A DNA stretch of 27,311 bases from positions 1 to 27,311 of the IMG/VR virus record IMGVR_UViG_3300028569_000143. The stretch is one strand, 5' to 3'. Position 1 is the stretch's first letter. Every line of letters starts with the position of its first letter. Shown in pieces: positions 5,640-23,895 of this stretch. This DNA comes from a virus. The notes under the pieces were generated by a model, which did not search any database, was not told where the DNA came from, and was given only the letters and a program-made list of their open reading frames with translations. Both the position numbers and the translations under genes were made by a program.

Positions 5640-7403
5640 TTATTGTGCAATTACAAGTTGTTGAATCCATTCGTGACGGCAAAACGGTGTCGTCGCTCCC
5701 GTGTCTGGATTTGTGTACCAGCCACCACGATAACGCCACACATCGCGGTCAACGCGTGTGGAAATGTTGTCAATGTCTTGACGGGAATAACTTCGATTCA
5801 ATTCAATAAGCTTCACGCAAAACGCGCGTGATTGCGTAATCGGATCAGGTACGTTCGGACGCGTTCGGTAAGTGTACCTAACTTCGAACCTTGAAATTGG
5901 AATTTCAATGTTTTCAATTACGGACTTTCCCAGCGTGTTCACTTCACCCCCCTTCGTGAGAATTTCAAGTTCACGAAGCGTCGCGATTCTTTTCGCAACG
6001 TCTTCAATGGATGTGTTCAACGCCTTCGCGATTGCTTCGCTTGATTCGCCGTCGGAAAGTAGTTTCAAAACGTCCTTGTCGCCACCAGCCAACACGGCGG
6101 AAATTTCGCCAACCTTGTCGAATAGTTGTTGACTTCGTGAAAACACTTGTTCACTTGGTGTGTCCCACGCAATCGGTTCGGAATGAAGCACGATGAAATT
6201 GTCATTCGATTCACCGAATTGTTCGAACACTTTGATTTCGTCGGTGCTGAAGTTGTTGTTGTGACATGACTGAACAATCGGTGTCGGTGCTGGTGCTGGT
6301 GTCGGAACGTCCTTCGGTAACGGATCAACGTCACGAAGCTTCACTTTGCCAACGTACCCACCAAGTTCAAGCATTAAGTTCAACATCCATTCGATTCGTC
6401 GTTGCTTTGTGTTCACATAAGTCGCTTTGAAAATGTTGAACAAATCCGCGCTTTCCGCTGAATTGAATGAACCTTCAAGACGAACACCGAAAAGTTGCGG
6501 TGAAGTAATTGCATGCGCCACAAGAATGTTTTGTTGAACGCTTTTTTCAGTTGCCAAATAACGTTGGTCAAGGTTGTTCCCGTTCAACGACAACACCGTC
6601 GGCGCTTCGTCTTGTCCGTTGCTGAATGTCAAAATGATTTCACCAGCGTCTTCGACGGATTGCGAACGACCTTTGACGTTTTCCTTCAATCGATTCAATT
6701 CTTCGGTTGTTTCGGGATAACCTGAAGGAAAGTTTATCAATGTGCCTGACTTAAATCCATTTTGAAGTTCGTACATGTGGAACTTCGAAATGTCAACGTC
6801 GGTTTGAATCGCCGTGATTCCACCGTAATACGAAGGCTTCGGATAAACACCAAGTTCCTTTCGACCTTTCAGGTGCGGTTCTTTATAGTAAAGAATGAAC
6901 GAACCAGTTCGGTTGTTCTTGTCGTAAGCTGGTAAAATTCGAAGGTTCGTTTTTTCAGGCGATTGATTCAACGCCAACCAATCGTCCGAAATAAAATAAG
7001 TCAATTCATCAACCGACGCGCGAATCATGTCAATCGGAATGTGTTCCCACAATACCACCTTCGTTTGTTCCTTGTTCCACGTTCCTTTGATTGCAAATCC
7101 ACCGAACAATTCTTGGTCGAACGCCATTCGTTCATTGATTTCGTTCATGTCGAAGTCCGACCATTTGTTATCAATGAATGATTGAACCATTCCTGAAACG
7201 ATTTCAAGACCACCACCAGCAATGTAGAATGTTTTATTCTTGATGATTCCTTGGTGGTAAGCCGAACCGTTGTAAAGGTCAATCAAAAAAAATGGATAGT
7301 CGTTCTTTTTTCCCCACTTCGTGAATCCGAGTGAACGGTCTTTTTCTTCTTCTGGTTTAATAAATTCTTTGCGAAAAGACAAAGACGTAATTTTGTTATT
7401 CAT
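5640..7403 (-). CDS. Portal protein with C-terminal HTH and CRHxW domains
   Basis: The 587-residue product has an N-terminal portal-like half: KKNDYPFFLIDLYNGSAYHQGIIKNK-type opening, the wing and clip region with DVDISKFHMY, and the ITSPQLFGV..SFNSAESADLFNIF stem that is usual in Bacteroidetes phage portals. The portal forms the dodecameric ring at one capsid vertex through which the terminase pumps DNA. After a Pro-Ala linker (PAPAPTP, near residue 390) comes an extra C-terminal part. It has a winged-helix-like segment (LKLLSDGESSEAIAKALNTSIEDVAKR) and a final domain ending TPFCRHEWIQQLV, where the Cys-Arg-His-x-Trp motif recalls minor-head (MuF-type) C-termini. The start at 7403 overlaps the upstream stop by 8 nt; an alternative start at 7457 overlaps by 62 nt. 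Confidence 0.85.
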   Translation of the reverse strand: MNNKITSLSFRKEFIKPEEEKDRSLGFTKWGKKNDYPFFLIDLYNGSAYHQGIIKNKTFYIAGGGLEIVSGMVQSFIDNKWSDFDMNEINERMAFDQELFGGFAIKGTWNKEQTKVVLWEHIPIDMIRASVDELTYFISDDWLALNQSPEKTNLRILPAYDKNNRTGSFILYYKEPHLKGRKELGVYPKPSYYGGITAIQTDVDISKFHMYELQNGFKSGTLINFPSGYPETTEELNRLKENVKGRSQSVEDAGEIILTFSNGQDEAPTVLSLNGNNLDQRYLATEKSVQQNILVAHAITSPQLFGVRLEGSFNSAESADLFNIFKATYVNTKQRRIEWMLNLMLELGGYVGKVKLRDVDPLPKDVPTPAPAPTPIVQSCHNNNFSTDEIKVFEQFGESNDNFIVLHSEPIAWDTPSEQVFSRSQQLFDKVGEISAVLAGGDKDVLKLLSDGESSEAIAKALNTSIEDVAKRIATLRELEILTKGGEVNTLGKSVIENIEIPISRFEVRYTYRTRPNVPDPITQSRAFCVKLIELNRSYSRQDIDNISTRVDRDVWRYRGGWYTNPDTGATTPFCRHEWIQQLVIAQ

Positions 7404-11251: not shown

Positions 11252-11917
11252 ATGACAAAATTTGTATTCCCCTACCGAAGAAGTCGCGATGACTTCGATA
11301 TTCAACAATCAATCCGATTCATTCGGATGTCTTTCCCTGAAGCGCACATCGTTACCGTTGGCGATAAGGTCGCGACTATTGACAACATTCCATGTCCACA
11401 ACTGAACAACATTCGTGGTGCGGACGTGACGAATAAAATGTTGACGTATGCCCGTGAACGTGGTGGTCAATTCATCTACATGAATGACGACTTTTATATC
11501 ACGCCCAAGCTTCGCGCCGACATTCCGATTCATGTTGGTGAATTCGAATTGAATCCACGACACCCGTCACACTACCGTGAAGCGATGTTCAACACGATTG
11601 AATTCTTGAAATACTATGAACGCCCGTTGTGGAATTTCGAAACACATTCGCCAGTGTTAATGGATTCGGACAAGTTGCTTGAAATCTTTGAACTGATTGA
11701 ATGGCAACGATACAACCATTTCATTAAATCAATTTACTTGAACATGAATTCACCTGAATTGATTTGCAAAGGCGTGAACGTCAAGCTTGCAAAAGACAAC
11801 ATTCCAAAAGCTGAAGAACTACTTCGAACGTATGGTTGTTTTTCAACGTCCGATTCATTCTTGACAACACGCGGTCGTTCGTGGATCAAAAACTTGTTTT
11901 GGATTCCTGAAGCTTAA
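11252..11917 (+). CDS. Stealth-like glycosyl/phosphotransferase candidate (221 aa)
   Basis: This is the only plus-strand gene in the window. The sequence resembles Stealth-type sugar phosphotransferases and related glycosyltransferases. An N-terminal SRDDFDIQQSIRFIRMSFPE (like the ELRYSLRS region) is followed by HIVTVGDKV (the strand before IVTDG). Then comes the diagnostic FIYMNDDFYITPKL (74-87) with the Asp79-Asp80 metal/nucleotide-sugar pair, and NFETHSPVLMDSDKL (128-142) resembling the later conserved His-Pro region. Family members transfer sugar-phosphate or sugar to polysaccharides. At 221 residues it is a minimal version. It faces the tape measure gene tail to tail (32-nt overlap) and the protease gene head to head (26-nt gap), as expected of an independently inserted 'moron'. 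A role in decorating the virion or host surface is inference. Confidence 0.6.
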   Translation: MTKFVFPYRRSRDDFDIQQSIRFIRMSFPEAHIVTVGDKVATIDNIPCPQLNNIRGADVTNKMLTYARERGGQFIYMNDDFYITPKLRADIPIHVGEFELNPRHPSHYREAMFNTIEFLKYYERPLWNFETHSPVLMDSDKLLEIFELIEWQRYNHFIKSIYLNMNSPELICKGVNVKLAKDNIPKAEELLRTYGCFSTSDSFLTTRGRSWIKNLFWIPEA

Positions 11918-19207: not shown

Positions 19208-19719
19208 TTTTCAGTTGCCTTGGTAAATTTTATTTCAAACGTCAATCCAGTTATTTCGGTCAAGTCCTTCGCAATCATTTCAAGCACCTTGTCGTTGATG
19301 ACATTCTCGGTGATGTTCTTCGCTTTCAATCCACGTTGTTTGATGTTCGAAGCGATTGCGAACGCGTGCGACATTTCAAGTCCTTTCCATTCCTGAATTG
19401 CCTTCGCCATGTTGTATGAAACGCCCGCATATCGAAACGAAAAAACGCTTGCATGATTGACGGCGATTCCGTTCACACCTTGGTCGACAAATTTATAGTA
19501 GTCGTCCGCCTGAATTTCAAAGGACAACGCGCCCGTCGGAAAGTACACGACCGATTGCGCAAGTGCGCCCGTGTTCATTGCGTTCGCCTGAATGTATTCG
19601 CGAAGGTCGGCGGTGACTTTGTTCCCGACGTTTATAATGAATTTTTCGTAAACGCTTTGTGGTTGTTCCGCTTCAGCAACCGACACCCCGAATTCTTCAA
19701 GGAAATCAAAGTCAGCCAT
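19198..19719 (-). CDS. HK97 gp10-like tail completion protein (173 aa)
   Basis: The 173-residue protein is mixed alpha/beta. An N-terminal helix region (KFIINVGNKVTADLREYIQ) is followed by TGALAQSVVYFPTGALSFEIQADDYYKFVDQGVNG. That pattern (helix, NTGxLxxS, strand, YYKFVDxGVxG) is typical of gp10-like head-tail joining or tail-completion proteins of siphoviruses. A C-terminal helix and strand follow (AFAIASNIKQRG; LTFEIKF). Its start overlaps the end of the -1 frame extension of the upstream gene by 8 nt (ATGGCTGA), a signature that the extension is translated. Confidence 0.65.
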   Translation of the reverse strand: MADFDFLEEFGVSVAEAEQPQSVYEKFIINVGNKVTADLREYIQANAMNTGALAQSVVYFPTGALSFEIQADDYYKFVDQGVNGIAVNHASVFSFRYAGVSYNMAKAIQEWKGLEMSHAFAIASNIKQRGLKAKNITENVINDKVLEMIAKDLTEITGLTFEIKFTKATEKWQ

Positions 19720-19975
19720 GGCGTTGTTTACTTAATATGTAATCTTGTTCGTCTTTCAATTTAAGGTAATTCATCCAGAACAATGTCTTCACATACGGTT
19801 GTTGAGTGATTGCGTCAATACTCGTTCCAAGTTCTTGTCCGAGTCGTTGAAGGATTCTTGTCCATGTGAACCACTCGTTGTCTTTATATTCGACATCGCT
19901 TTCCTTTGATTCATCATCGTCCGAATCGTCTGGATCGCTAATATAGCGTCGCTCCGCTTCTGAGATTCGCGCAAA
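19712..19975 (-). CDS. -1 frame extension of the tail-chaperone-like gene (87 codons)
   Basis: This open frame has no useful start of its own but continues the upstream gene after a one-base backward slip on the U9 run at 19973-19981. The fusion would be about 260 residues. The peptide looks clearly protein-like: ARISEAERRYISDPDDSDDD, an acidic linker, then DNEWFTWTRILQRLGQELG, SIDAITQQPYVKTLFWMNYL and KLKDEQDYILSKQRHG. The W..I/L...LG.....ID.IT..P...... pattern matches the small domain I know as the second tail-chaperone ORF in Bacteroidetes phages. It ends 8 nt inside the next gene in ATGGCTGA. A homopolymer sequencing error is the alternative to true frameshifting. Confidence 0.7.
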   Translation of the reverse strand, partial: FARISEAERRYISDPDDSDDDESKESDVEYKDNEWFTWTRILQRLGQELGTSIDAITQQPYVKTLFWMNYLKLKDEQDYILSKQRHG

Positions 19976-20493
19976 AAAAAACCAAAGAAGTTCATGAATT
20001 CCGCACCGTCAAATTCTTCTGTGAACGCCTTATATCTTTTGTCGTTCGGATTCAACACGCGACCACGGTCGTCTTCTTGACAGTATTCCATTCCTTCTTC
20101 AATGTAGCAAATCGCAAGCGCTTGAACGGGATCACTCGCAAGGTCTTCGATAAGCTTCAGGTCAATGATTTGTCCAGTGCTAATTAAACGGAAATCTTTT
20201 TCAAAGACGTAGCGTTGACCGTTGACCGTTACTTCACCAAGCGGTTCTGCGTAGGTATAGCTGGCAATCATTCGCGTCAAGTGACCAGACAAACGTTGAA
20301 CGTCTTCAATAGCAAGTTGCTTGACCTTCGACACCTTCATTCCTGAAAAGATTGCGATAAGCTGACATTGAAAGTCAAGCATTTGAAACAATTCATCGTT
20401 TTGCTTTTCCTTGATGACTTCAGCTAACATCAACCACTTGACAAGCTGGTCAGGTTTGCACTCGTGAATCGAAGCTGGTAGTTTTATTTTCAT
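19789..20493 (-). CDS. Tail assembly chaperone-like protein, zero-frame product (234 aa)
   Basis: The ATG at 20493 overlaps the terminase stop by 4 nt (ATGA). The protein starts MKIKLPASIHECKPDQLVKW and continues with DFQCQLIAIFSGMKVSKVKQL, RYVFEKDFRLISTGQIIDL and DPVQALAICYIEEG. This matches the general pattern of the first tail-chaperone ORF in Bacteroidetes phages (IKLP start, IFSG/LxG-x-P region, ID-L-ED/YL region, A-A-CYI..G). At residue 171-174 (GFFL) it crosses a run of nine U. Zero-frame reading goes on for about 61 residues of less convincing sequence; the -1 frame gives a better extension. Chaperones of this type coat the tape measure protein during tail assembly. Here the gene is unusually far from the tape measure gene, so the label is tentative. 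Confidence 0.6.
   Translation of the reverse strand: MKIKLPASIHECKPDQLVKWLMLAEVIKEKQNDELFQMLDFQCQLIAIFSGMKVSKVKQLAIEDVQRLSGHLTRMIASYTYAEPLGEVTVNGQRYVFEKDFRLISTGQIIDLKLIEDLASDPVQALAICYIEEGMEYCQEDDRGRVLNPNDKRYKAFTEEFDGAEFMNFFGFFLRESQKRSDAILAIQTIRTMMNQRKAMSNIKTTSGSHGQESFNDSDKNLERVLTQSLNNRM
19973..19981 (-). promoter_or_regulatory. Slippery U9 site, candidate -1 programmed frameshift
   Basis: Nine consecutive T on the minus strand are read in zero frame as GGT TTT TTT TTG CGC. A slip of one base back gives TTT GCG CGA and opens the 87-codon extension ending at 19712. A U-only heptamer is a classic slippery sequence in which both tRNAs can re-pair fully. Lambda-type G/GT tail genes use frameshifts in the same genomic setting. 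No obvious stimulatory hairpin was identified by eye downstream. Confidence 0.65.
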
Positions 20494-21692
20494 ATTCGTA
20501 ATGTGTTGTATTTCCCTTTCGACTTGTTGTTCTTCATGGAATTCCACGCAAGCGCCAATGACATGACACCGTCGTCGTGTAGTCCAGTCGGTGCGCTATA
20601 TTGCACGTTCCTTGTTTTCGGATTGTAAATATAAGTAAATGAATCGAGTTCGTCAAGCAACCATTTCACGTCGTTCACACGAATCGCTTGTTGTTCGAAC
20701 GACAACGCAAGGTCTTCAATCAACACTGGTTTCGACTTCGATGTGGTCACGAATGGAACGACCTTGTTACGCAAAGTGTTGTGAAGCATTTCGAAAAACA
20801 CGTCACCTTGGTTGTTGACTTCGACCGTAGTGATTGCGTTGAACTGGCGAATCAATCCAGCGACCTTGTCAATGATTCGTGACCAGTCGTCGTGTCGCCA
20901 CCTTTCAACGTGAACCATGTGACCGTGTTCATTCAGGATTGTCAACACCGTATAGTCATCCGCGCGTCCGATGTCCAGACCGCCATACATTCGTGACGTG
21001 AGTTCACCTTGACCGACACACAACGACACACCCTTGAATAATCCACCAGCGTTGTCAAGGAATTCCGCAAGGTATTCTTGACGGAACACATGGTCTGGCA
21101 ATGACCGACGGCGTTCTTCAAGTTCCTTCGGATCAATCATAGGATTGTCGAACGACGTGAAATGAAAGTAGCGGTAACGGTCGTCGTAGTTTTGCTGAAG
21201 ACACACCCGGTGGAAATGATTCTTTCCCTTCGGCGTTGAAATGAAGATGACCTTCTTTCCCTTGACAAGCACCGTCGCGGACAAAACTTCATCCCAAAGT
21301 TCGGGACGTGTGAACGCGAATTCATCCACGACCATGTAGTCGAATGTATTTCCACGAATGTTGTCTGGACGTTCACCTGAAAAGAATTCAATGGACGAAC
21401 CGAAGCCAGTGATTCGCAAGTCCGACTTGTTGAATTCAAATAAACCCGACTTCGCAACGGCGCGTTCAAGTTCAGCGAATACTTTCTTGCCTTGTTTGTA
21501 CACTGGTGTAACCCATGCAATCGTGCAACCTCGGTCGTTGATTGCCCAATACAAAAGTTGATTGATCCCAAGTAATGTCTTTCCAAATTGACGTCCGATG
21601 TTCAAAGAGAAATACTTTTGATTACCTTGGTTGATTGCTTGATGAATTTCAAGCTGGTGTTTGTGCGGTCGGTAACCTTTAATCGTTGACAT
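20490..21692 (-). CDS. terL: Terminase large subunit
   Basis: The 400-residue protein has the ATPase motor and nuclease of large terminases. Walker A is GRQFGKT (33-39), the adenine/Q region lies in the preceding HKHQLEIHQA, Walker B is VVDEF (121-125), and the coupling motif is ISTPKGK (151-157). The RNase H-like nuclease domain starts with GGLDIGRADDYT (Asp240) and ends with HDDGVMSLALA (Asp373/Asp374). It cuts concatemeric DNA and pumps it through the portal. The start at 21692 (MSTIKGYRPH) leaves a 14-nt overlap with the small subunit; an ATG at 21740 would overlap by 62 nt and add 16 residues. The stop overlaps the next gene by 4 nt. Confidence 0.95.
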   Translation of the reverse strand: MSTIKGYRPHKHQLEIHQAINQGNQKYFSLNIGRQFGKTLLGINQLLYWAINDRGCTIAWVTPVYKQGKKVFAELERAVAKSGLFEFNKSDLRITGFGSSIEFFSGERPDNIRGNTFDYMVVDEFAFTRPELWDEVLSATVLVKGKKVIFISTPKGKNHFHRVCLQQNYDDRYRYFHFTSFDNPMIDPKELEERRRSLPDHVFRQEYLAEFLDNAGGLFKGVSLCVGQGELTSRMYGGLDIGRADDYTVLTILNEHGHMVHVERWRHDDWSRIIDKVAGLIRQFNAITTVEVNNQGDVFFEMLHNTLRNKVVPFVTTSKSKPVLIEDLALSFEQQAIRVNDVKWLLDELDSFTYIYNPKTRNVQYSAPTGLHDDGVMSLALAWNSMKNNKSKGKYNTLRI

Positions 21693-22086
21693 CGAAATCG
21701 AACCTTTCCACGTTTCTTGTTTCGACTTGTTGGCGGTCATGCATTCCTAATTTGTTCTTTGCGTAGAAAATTCCCTTGCCTTCATTCGCCACGATGTCGC
21801 GTGCCAAAGCGTTGAAGTCGTTGTCGATTGTTTTTATAGTGTCGGACAATGGATGTGTTTCGTCCTTCATCGCATGATACCAGTTGTCCCGTTTGTAGAA
21901 ATCAAAGTGTTCCCTTCGAAGCCAATGAAGAAGGAAATAAGACACCGTCGGAATGTGTCGTTCTTTGACTTGCTTCACGCCTGAATTCGTTGCGATTTCC
22001 TTCGTTGACGCAATACAGTAGTCGCAATAGTTGTAAGCCATTTGAAGCAATTCGTCTTTGTCGATGTCGCGGTGTTTGTTTGCCAT
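21679..22086 (-). CDS. terS: Terminase small subunit
   Basis: The 135-residue protein starts MANKHRDIDKDELLQMAYNY and has the all-helical composition of small terminases. It has a helix-turn-helix-like part in the centre (TVSYFLLHWLRREHFDFYKRDNW, where an HTH selects pac/cos DNA), a coiled region (DTIKTIDNDFNALARDIVAN), and a C-terminal tail NVERFDFDVND likely to contact the large subunit. It overlaps terL by 14 nt. The chosen ATG follows an intergenic segment of 37 nt and a purine-rich stretch (AAAGGGGAAC); an extended start inside the upstream gene is less likely. It is assigned from position and domain order, since small subunits vary strongly in sequence. Confidence 0.85.
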   Translation of the reverse strand: MANKHRDIDKDELLQMAYNYCDYCIASTKEIATNSGVKQVKERHIPTVSYFLLHWLRREHFDFYKRDNWYHAMKDETHPLSDTIKTIDNDFNALARDIVANEGKGIFYAKNKLGMHDRQQVETRNVERFDFDVND

Positions 22087-22123: not shown

Positions 22124-23200
22124 TTATTTGCAATACTTAATATAAAAAGTGTACGGAACAACCTTCATTTTTTGTAGAATCCAAAACAAGAATTTATATT
22201 TTTTGAAGTTATATTTTTTGAAATTGTTACGATTGCCAATAGGCAAAGAAATCAATTTTTTGATTCGTTCTTTGTCTTTTCCAAGCTTGTCGAAATCGAA
22301 TGATGATTTAACATTAAACAATTTGCGCGCTTGTTGTTTTGTTAGTCGACCTGAACGAACTTGCGCGGAAAGATAAACGATTCTTTTATCGATGTTGAAT
22401 TTTTCAGGCAACAAATAAGATCCCACAAATTCGGTGTAAATGTTTTCGCAATGTTTGCCTCCGTAATCTTTCCACTCAATAAGTTGTTTCATTTCCTTTT
22501 CCATTTTGTCGCGGTCAAATCCATAGTGAAACGGACGAATGTTTTCGATTCCTTTCCAAGCATAGAATAGTTGATCCTTAAATGTGAACAAGGGAAAGTT
22601 ACTCAATTCAAGACCAGTGTGTTTTTTGTACAAATCGCAAATGTATTTCGCGTCCATGTACGTCCACCCCTTCGGTGTCGAACCTTCAGTTCGGAAATCG
22701 TGACCATTCAAAATGTATTTGATTTTATATTTGTGCGCGGTGTCATACATGAGTTTTGTCATCGCGATGTCGTTTGGAATGTCCGCGTCTGGAACACCAG
22801 CGCAAAGAATTGAATCGTTCAATTTATCGTATTCTTTTTTGTTGACTTGATATGTAATTAAATCGACGTTAAGCTTAGTGATTAAGCCATTCATATTGTG
22901 TTTCGCTTCAGGTGCATTCCAGTTGTTGTCAAAGTGAATGACCAATGGTCTTAATTTCCAGTATTTCACAGCGGTGTAAAGAAGGATTGATGAATCGATT
23001 CCCCCGGATATACCCATAATGCAATCGTATTTTTTTCTACGACCTTTGTTTTTTATTTTATAAATCGTTGGCATTAATTGCGAAAAGTCCGATTGTTTTT
23101 CAAGTGAATCGTGAAGGTCACAATATTCGCATTGTTGTTCACTGATTGTTGCGAAGCTTTCATCAAACAAACATCGTTTACATTCTTTCATGTTTTTCAT
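22124..23200 (-). CDS. N-acetyl-sugar amidotransferase (WbpG/PseA-like)
   Basis: The N-terminus holds two CxxC pairs (CKRC 7-10; CEYC 24-27) as a zinc site. A PP-loop ATP-pyrophosphatase signature follows (GISGGIDSS, 63-71), then LVIHFDNNWN, ILNGHDFRTEG, and a C-terminal region with YGGKHCENIYTEFVGSYLLP, KFNIDKRIVYLSAQVRSG and RLTKQQARKLF. That order is characteristic of sugar amidotransferases (WbpG, PseA, LegG-type), which adenylate a sugar carboxylate or acetamido group and convert it to an amide or acetamidino form on bacterial surface glycans. A glutaminase partner (HisH-like) usually supplies ammonia; none is seen here. It overlaps the glycosyltransferase gene by 4 nt and is more A+T-rich than the neighbouring phage genes, suggesting transfer from a host glycan locus. 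Confidence 0.85.
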   Translation of the reverse strand: MKNMKECKRCLFDESFATISEQQCEYCDLHDSLEKQSDFSQLMPTIYKIKNKGRRKKYDCIMGISGGIDSSILLYTAVKYWKLRPLVIHFDNNWNAPEAKHNMNGLITKLNVDLITYQVNKKEYDKLNDSILCAGVPDADIPNDIAMTKLMYDTAHKYKIKYILNGHDFRTEGSTPKGWTYMDAKYICDLYKKHTGLELSNFPLFTFKDQLFYAWKGIENIRPFHYGFDRDKMEKEMKQLIEWKDYGGKHCENIYTEFVGSYLLPEKFNIDKRIVYLSAQVRSGRLTKQQARKLFNVKSSFDFDKLGKDKERIKKLISLPIGNRNNFKKYNFKKYKFLFWILQKMKVVPYTFYIKYCK

Positions 23201-23895
23201 TTTAGTAGTTGTATTTCGTTAAAATTTTCATTCAATAAATCAATGTTGCAAATTTTCGATTGCAATTTTCCATTCCAGTGATCTTCAAATTTATGTTTGT
23301 TCGTCCATTTGTTTGTCGAGATTGACAATAGTTGAATTTTTGATTGTTCTTCAAATATACCAATTTTTTGATATGTGTTCAACGCTTTCAACCACATTGA
23401 CCAATCAAGTCCAGCGTTCAAATTTTCATCAAACGGTTTCCAATTTATATCGTTCAGGAAATCACAACGCAAAACGCGACCAATTCCAATCGGTTCTTCA
23501 TGTCGCATTCCGTTACCATAGCCAGTCCAGTGAACAAGACGAATTTTGTCAGCAACATCAACGAAATGACAACCAAGCATTCCAAGTAAATTGAAATCGT
23601 TCAAGTTTTCATTCACGCTTTTAATATAATCGTCGGAACACCAATCACTTGAACCCATAAAAATAACACCATCAGGTTTGTAATTTTTGCAAGCCATGAA
23701 TCCTTTGTTCCACTTGTTTCCAAGCGGTGAATTTGGCGCTTGAATGAATTCAATGTTCAAATCGTTTGCAATTTCTTTAATTTGATTTTCATGACCGATT
23801 AATATAGGCGTGACTCCTTGACGTATTAATCTTGACGCCGTTAATTCAACCAATGGAAATCGATTGAAGCAAGGAATGGGTGCGATTATTTTCAT
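23197..23895 (-). CDS. GT-A type glycosyltransferase (232 aa)
   Basis: The protein opens MKIIAPIPCFNRFPLVELTA, like the APxYNR start of family-2-type glycosyltransferases. It then has LGNKWNKGFMACKNYKPDGVIFMGSSDWCSDDYI, where the G-x-x-N-G-x pattern and the SSDWCSDD (82-89) Asp cluster stand for the DxD metal/nucleotide-sugar site. A middle GNGMRHEEPIGIGRVLRCDFLN and a C-terminal acceptor part NAGLDWSMWLKALN (the general base-like D and W residues) follow. It would transfer an activated sugar to an unknown acceptor in the cytoplasm. It is coupled to the sugar amidotransferase gene (4-nt overlap). Together they could build an amidated sugar for virion or host-surface decoration. Confidence 0.7.
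   Translation of the reverse strand: MKIIAPIPCFNRFPLVELTASRLIRQGVTPILIGHENQIKEIANDLNIEFIQAPNSPLGNKWNKGFMACKNYKPDGVIFMGSSDWCSDDYIKSVNENLNDFNLLGMLGCHFVDVADKIRLVHWTGYGNGMRHEEPIGIGRVLRCDFLNDINWKPFDENLNAGLDWSMWLKALNTYQKIGIFEEQSKIQLLSISTNKWTNKHKFEDHWNGKLQSKICNIDLLNENFNEIQLLK

Follow-up and report, generated by a model that had tools for sequence, protein, structure and literature searches.

A conserved run of nine T beside terL and a selected −1 frame point to a programmed frameshift in a putative phage tail-assembly chaperone gene

The DNA analysed here (the window) is a stretch of 27,311 nucleotides from a virus, positions 1 to 27,311 of the IMG/VR record IMGVR_UViG_3300028569_000143. On its minus strand, directly downstream of the gene for the terminase large subunit (terL), lies a gene whose start overlaps terL by 4 nt and whose reading frame runs into nine consecutive T (T9 in the DNA, U9 in the mRNA). 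The features of the locus are listed in Table 1. A sequence-only reading of this DNA had proposed a programmed −1 frameshift on this run, and the nine U and their zero-frame phase in the gene after terL were found as described. The U9 site contains two heptamers, U_UUU_UUU (19975-19981) and U_UUU_UUG (19972-19978). The −1 frame is open before as well as after the T9; its stop, a TGA at 19712-19714, falls 8 nt into the next gene, whose ATG is at 19719 (ATGGCTGA). The zero frame runs about 186 nt beyond the slip. The earlier count of 87 codons for the −1 frame and its end within the next gene were both correct, and recomputing the lengths of the zero-frame product and of the fused zero/−1 product (260 aa) confirmed that the two would be nearly equal. 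The T9 is the sole A/T run of at least 9 in the whole window. The next longest are two A8 tracts on the plus strand at 7285 and 7934, in and near the portal gene.

Table 1. Coordinates of the frameshift gene, its parts and selected neighbouring genes in the window
Feature	Positions	Strand	Description
Terminase large subunit gene (terL)	20490..21740	−	PHROG phrog_2, E 1.5e-45
Zero-frame product, 234 aa	19789..20493	−	ATG at 20493, stop at 19789; chaperone-like N-domain (residues 1-173) and its own C-terminal tail
U9 slip site	19973..19981	−	Zero frame GGU UUU UUU UUG, after codon 170
−1 frame tail (T-like domain)	19712..19975	−	Acidic linker, then EWFTWT...QPYVKTLFWMN...KLKDEQDYI
Dual-coded stretch, first 30 codons after the slip	19886..19975	−	Zero frame under protein-level selection, judged from substitution patterns
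Rest of the overlap, to the zero-frame stop	19789..19885	−	−1 frame dominates (family 1)
Next gene, 173 aa	19198..19719	−	Homologue of P12024S gp42; phrog_29822 E 2.9e-4, phmmer 3.7e-8
Probable tape measure gene, 899 aa	11886..14585	−	Length, charged helical-looking sequence with hydrophobic segments, position

The block order terL, putative chaperone gene, Neck1-like gene and, further on, tape measure gene is common to the window and to the cultured Nonlabens phage P12024S. P12024S gp42, the homologue of the next gene, matches phrog_5 (tail completion or Neck1) with an E value of 4.2e-4. PHROG and NCBIfam searches gave no tape measure family match for the 899-aa product, and the tape measure gene is a probable assignment made from length, sequence features and position. 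From the frameshift gene, this candidate is about 5.1 kb downstream, with five genes in between; gp49 of P12024S, which is phrog_58-like, lies 6.4 kb downstream. With the tape measure gene so assigned, the claim that the frameshift gene sits by terL and not by the tape measure gene is borne out. Between the tape measure candidate and the protease gene, a 221-aa open reading frame (11252-11917) is encoded on the plus strand, opposite to its neighbours. Upstream of terL, at 22124-23895, two genes resemble, as judged by eye, an amidotransferase (with a GGIDSS motif) and a glycosyltransferase.

Homopolymers are error-prone, and the proposal of a frameshift was initially based on a single window. 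An assembly or sequencing error, with a true gene of 8 or 10 T and one intact frame, had accordingly been named as the main alternative. Searching IMG/VR with the N-domain yielded 125 relatives, of which 80 were examined. The T9 was present in all 80 with its zero-frame phase unchanged, and both the zero and the −1 frames were open past it as far as the contig permitted. The zero-frame product was conserved in these 80 relatives. Additional IMG/VR scans, in which profiles and the −1 tail served as queries, brought the total to 257 loci representing 95 distinct sequences around the run (family 1). Exactly nine T were found at every one of these loci (257/257; 95/95 distinct), and at each the −1 frame led to the same tail. 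Only one other A/T run of at least 9 occurred in 708 kb of family-1 loci, which are mutually related and not independent. We reject a homopolymer error because the T9 is kept in 95 distinct relatives while other A/T runs of this length are nearly absent. Two results described below, the same arrangement with a T9 in a remote family (one member has a T10, by substitution) and a zero-frame wobble signature downstream of the run, also stand against it, and the probability that we would still assign to such an error is negligible. In the genome collections, one metagenome-assembled genome contig carries a relative; a weak match in a second genome (L265) looked like chance and was set aside. One family-1 contig (L144:1759-1900) keeps the T9 and lacks the core of the −1 tail, through either a real deletion or an assembly fault.

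The −1 tail was aligned from 22 representatives. After a variable acidic linker, the residues E-W-F-x-W-T, Q-P-Y, W-x-N, K, and E-Q are invariant, and the mean column identity of the tail is 61%. The tail is predicted to be mostly helical, with low model confidence over the first 34 residues. A Foldseek search with the −1 tail gave no significant match.

A second, distant family was reached through the predicted structure. A tblastn search of the N-domain against cultured phages gave no match. The structure model of the zero-frame product (mean pLDDT, 59), compared with viral predicted structures, matched a 175-aa protein of P12024S with an E value of 6.9e-6, and this protein was assigned to gp38 by its length. 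In P12024S, gp38 follows terL and carries a T9, and the −1 frame passes through the deposited gp39. The record contains gp38 and gp39 as separate hypothetical proteins, without an annotated frameshift; very likely, they are the two frames of one frameshifted gene (L266:23136-23830). A scan with gp38 gave 63 loci, and the 63 sequences scored include 44 distinct ones (family 2). All of these have a T9 except the one with a T10 mentioned above, and an interrupted T run was found in no relative of either family. In the family-2 members that were read out, the −1 tail has the form W-x-W...D...E. The zero-frame overlap in this family ranges from 17 to 85 codons, being 56 to 85 in most members and 17 to 26 in the P12024S-like members.

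Identity between the two families is only about 16%, and profile comparison joins them. Between the N-domains the E value was 1.3e-11; when the −1 tails were compared by themselves it was 0.0012, and the fused proteins, aligned over 240 columns, gave 1.3e-10. In both families the site of slippage is aligned, directly after an aligned FF motif. The gp38-gp39 genes of P12024S and P12024L thus resemble the window gene in encoding a homologous protein beside terL, with a T9 at the aligned place and a −1 tail, and the neck, capsid and portal genes of these phages also match those of the window, as does the protease gene of P12024S. They differ in the phase of the T run, which in family 2 is NTT TTT TTT TAY. 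The T's are split 1+6+2 over the codons in one family and 2+6+1 in the other; therefore, the common core is U_UUU_UUU. Family 2 includes the cultured Nonlabens (Persicivirga) phages P12024S and P12024L, and from this relation the host of the window virus is probably a member of the Bacteroidota.

We additionally examined substitutions in the stretch where both frames are open. In family 1 (18 independent sister pairs), the share of −1-frame synonymous codons that had changed was 0.17 in the N-domain; downstream of the slip, it was only 0.03 for the first 15 codons and 0.02 for the next 15 (odds ratios, 0.14 and 0.11; p about 1e-12). In family 2 (13 pairs), the corresponding share went from 0.21 to 0.03 and 0.03. 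The changes that remain point to the frame under protection. Over the first 30 codons in family 1, changes at −1-frame positions 1/2/3 numbered 46/15/15, compared to 120/53/530 in the N-domain (Fisher p 1e-19); in family 2 they numbered 27/13/23, with the same trend (p 2e-7). Position 1 of the −1 frame is the wobble position of the zero frame. Because the remaining changes follow this position, these patterns indicate that the zero frame is selected as a protein in the first 30 codons after the slip. An RNA element acting alone, which was considered as the cause of the suppressed −1 synonymous change, was set aside for the same tracking of the zero-frame wobble position.

Further downstream, the two families behave differently. 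In family 1 beyond 30 codons the odds ratio was 0.63, compared to 0.57 after the zero stop; since suppression here does not exceed that past the stop, there is no clear signal of zero-frame selection in this part. In family 2, suppression holds as far as the zero stop, with an odds ratio of 0.28, and past the stop it loses significance (0.71). The zero frame seems to prevail first after the slip and the −1 frame further on, as the substitutions suggest. The openness of the zero frame is by itself unexceptional. When synonymous codons were resampled, the zero frame stayed open as long as observed in 2 to 41% of trials, varying by sequence. This result, together with the lack of a clear signal beyond 30 codons in family 1, would fit a zero-frame tail that is a passive by-product, with selection on the −1 frame alone and a zero frame that merely lacks stops. 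However, such a by-product does not account for the shift of changes in the first 30 codons toward −1-frame position 1 and away from position 3 in both families, nor for the family-2 suppression that extends up to the zero stop and is not significant beyond it, and we consider it improbable. The dual-coding tail proposed from the window alone therefore stands for the first 30 codons, and selection on the zero frame beyond them left no clear signal in family 1. The check that had been suggested, alignment of both tails with related phages, thus gave a −1 tail conserved along its length and a zero frame selected in its first 30 codons; relatives conserving the zero-frame tail alone were not observed.

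In tail chaperone pairs of the G/GT type, both products are required in a set ratio for tail assembly and are missing from the virion. We compared the proteins of the locus with known members of this class. The top Pfam match was PF10109 (Phage_TAC_7), a weak one found in 8 of 20 members, with a best E value of 0.0028; the window protein itself scored 15.7 bits, below the curated cutoff of 25 bits, and is not filed as a member. Mu gp41, which belongs with P2 gpE to PF10109, was the closest known chaperone and the best of 30 proteins tested, with a marginal E value of 0.0033. Comparisons with lambda G, P2 gpE, HK97 gp13, and TP901-1 stayed at the control level, with no significant sequence match, and the NCBIfam search gave none. 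Foldseek, using the same model of mean pLDDT 59, matched mostly unnamed phage proteins and two named as tail assembly chaperones, both weakly (E 0.037 and 0.78), and comparison of this low-confidence model with PDB structures gave only uninformative matches, with Z of 2.1 to 2.6.

With similarity to known chaperones marginal at the sequence level, we infer the chaperone function. The same marginal likeness, and the adjoining terL gene in both the window and P12024S, could instead point to a real protein pair with another role, e.g., a packaging or head-completion factor. We think this quite unlikely: a −1 shift that fuses a helical N-domain with a second, short helical domain, together with the 8-nt stop/start overlap, is the layout of a tail chaperone pair, the best Pfam match, weak as it is, is Phage_TAC_7, and the neighbouring genes form a tail/neck block.

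The G/GT genetic layout that had been recognized at this locus is backed by the comparisons among relatives, in which the T9 and the −1 tail recur, also in the remote family. A slippery site with an open, overlapping −1 frame is present, and the slip site and the shifted domain are kept together in the 95 distinct sequences of family 1 and the 44 of family 2. In 58/77 and 40/59 relatives, the overlap between the −1 stop and the next start measures 8 nt. As in lambda gpG/gpGT and in HK97 gp13 with its −1 fusion, the shift lies near the end of the N-domain gene and fuses a second domain to it. By annotated coordinates, the shifted frame of lambda likewise ends 8 nt inside the tape measure start, and the same is true of P2 gpE/gpE+E'. 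The slip site of P2 is also a T run, and the P2-type T_TTT_TTG is contained in the U9 found here.

Two usual features of such pairs are different at this locus, neither of them strictly defining. The gene typically lies just upstream of the tape measure gene, as in lambda and in P2, where it abuts that gene; here the next gene is Neck1-like, and five genes separate the pair from the inferred tape measure gene. The zero-frame overlap is typically short, averaging 26 nt in one set and 36 nt in another (PMC10274946), and the zero frame of lambda ends soon after the slip, as does that of P2, 20 nt past the annotated shift site. In contrast, the zero frame here is far longer and in part appears to be selected. 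In the well-studied tail chaperone frameshifts, the zero frame stops almost immediately and the gene abuts the tape measure gene. Because the layout matches while adjacency to the tape measure gene and the short overlap are absent, the locus may represent a new form of tail chaperone frameshift.

We also considered which machine slips on the run. Single-strand RNA folds near the site did not surpass those of shuffled sequences (z, −0.9 to +2.4), and the alignment fold downstream of the run (−2.67 kcal/mol, one compensatory pair) contained no stable or covarying stimulator. A small hairpin, AGCG...CGCU, located some 16 nt downstream of the run, was set aside, being broken in L068 and L070. The absence of RNA structure near the site would suit transcriptional slippage, in which RNA polymerase adds one U (or drops two) on the T9 and normal translation then yields the same 260-aa product. 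Bacterial RNA polymerases slip on long A or T runs (Wagner 1990, cited in PMC3711429), and a run of 11 A works as a polymerase slippage site in Citrobacter tssM (PMC4256274). The length of the T9 is compatible with this process, and the run is uninterrupted in every relative. However, known lambda-type pairs, whose products work together with the tail tube and tape measure proteins, are ascribed to ribosomal −1 shifting (PMC5009743), and P2 uses T6G and its relatives T7G or T7C (PMC3931495). Moreover, the core common to both families is U_UUU_UUU, and the T's on either side of it belong to codons that are not the same in the two families. Transcriptional slippage is for these reasons a possible but unlikely origin of the fusion, and the ribosome is presumably the machine that slips.

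Comparison of the sequences establishes a conserved U9, a conserved −1 tail, selection on both frames, and homology to the P12024S-type gene beside terL. The gene very probably encodes a tail-assembly chaperone pair produced by programmed −1 frameshifting. Most ribosomes would pass the U9 without leaving the zero frame, which yields the 234-aa G-like protein, and a minority would step back by one base on U_UUU_UUU, or on U_UUU_UUG, and produce the 260-aa GT-like fusion; the ratio of the two products is presumed. The −1 tail would bring an acidic linker and a helical T-like domain to the fusion. By analogy with lambda and P2, the common N-domain may coat the tape measure protein, with the less abundant fusion bringing in the tail tube subunit so that tails reach their proper length. 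Unlike in lambda and P2, the zero-frame protein would keep its own selected C-terminal segment, and because of this segment the slip may be closer to a switch between two C termini than to a simple extension. A further reading combines the U9 as a polymerase slippage site that sets the chaperone ratio with near-equal products whose alternative C termini are separately selected, a switch and not a G-to-GT extension; in this combined form we hold it to be rather unlikely.

The frameshift arrangement is thus retained in two very remote phage families, one of which, at least, infects a member of the Bacteroidota; the gene lies beside terL and has a long stretch with both frames under selection. 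Reading the frames jointly accounts for hypothetical proteins deposited as if unrelated, such as P12024S gp38 and gp39. Searches keyed on proximity to the tape measure gene or on a short overlap would miss some such pairs. The locus also offers a clean natural test of two proteins sharing one stretch of DNA. In a literature search, we found no paper joining a tail assembly chaperone frameshift with a Flavobacterium phage. The N-domain is related to gp10 of Flavobacterium phage 6H (E 1.3e-6). In this phage (L267:10047-10927), the gap before gp09 contains a tail-like sequence in another frame, and two frame changes are apparently needed to reach it; the frame path of gp10 would reflect either two shifts or a sequence error.
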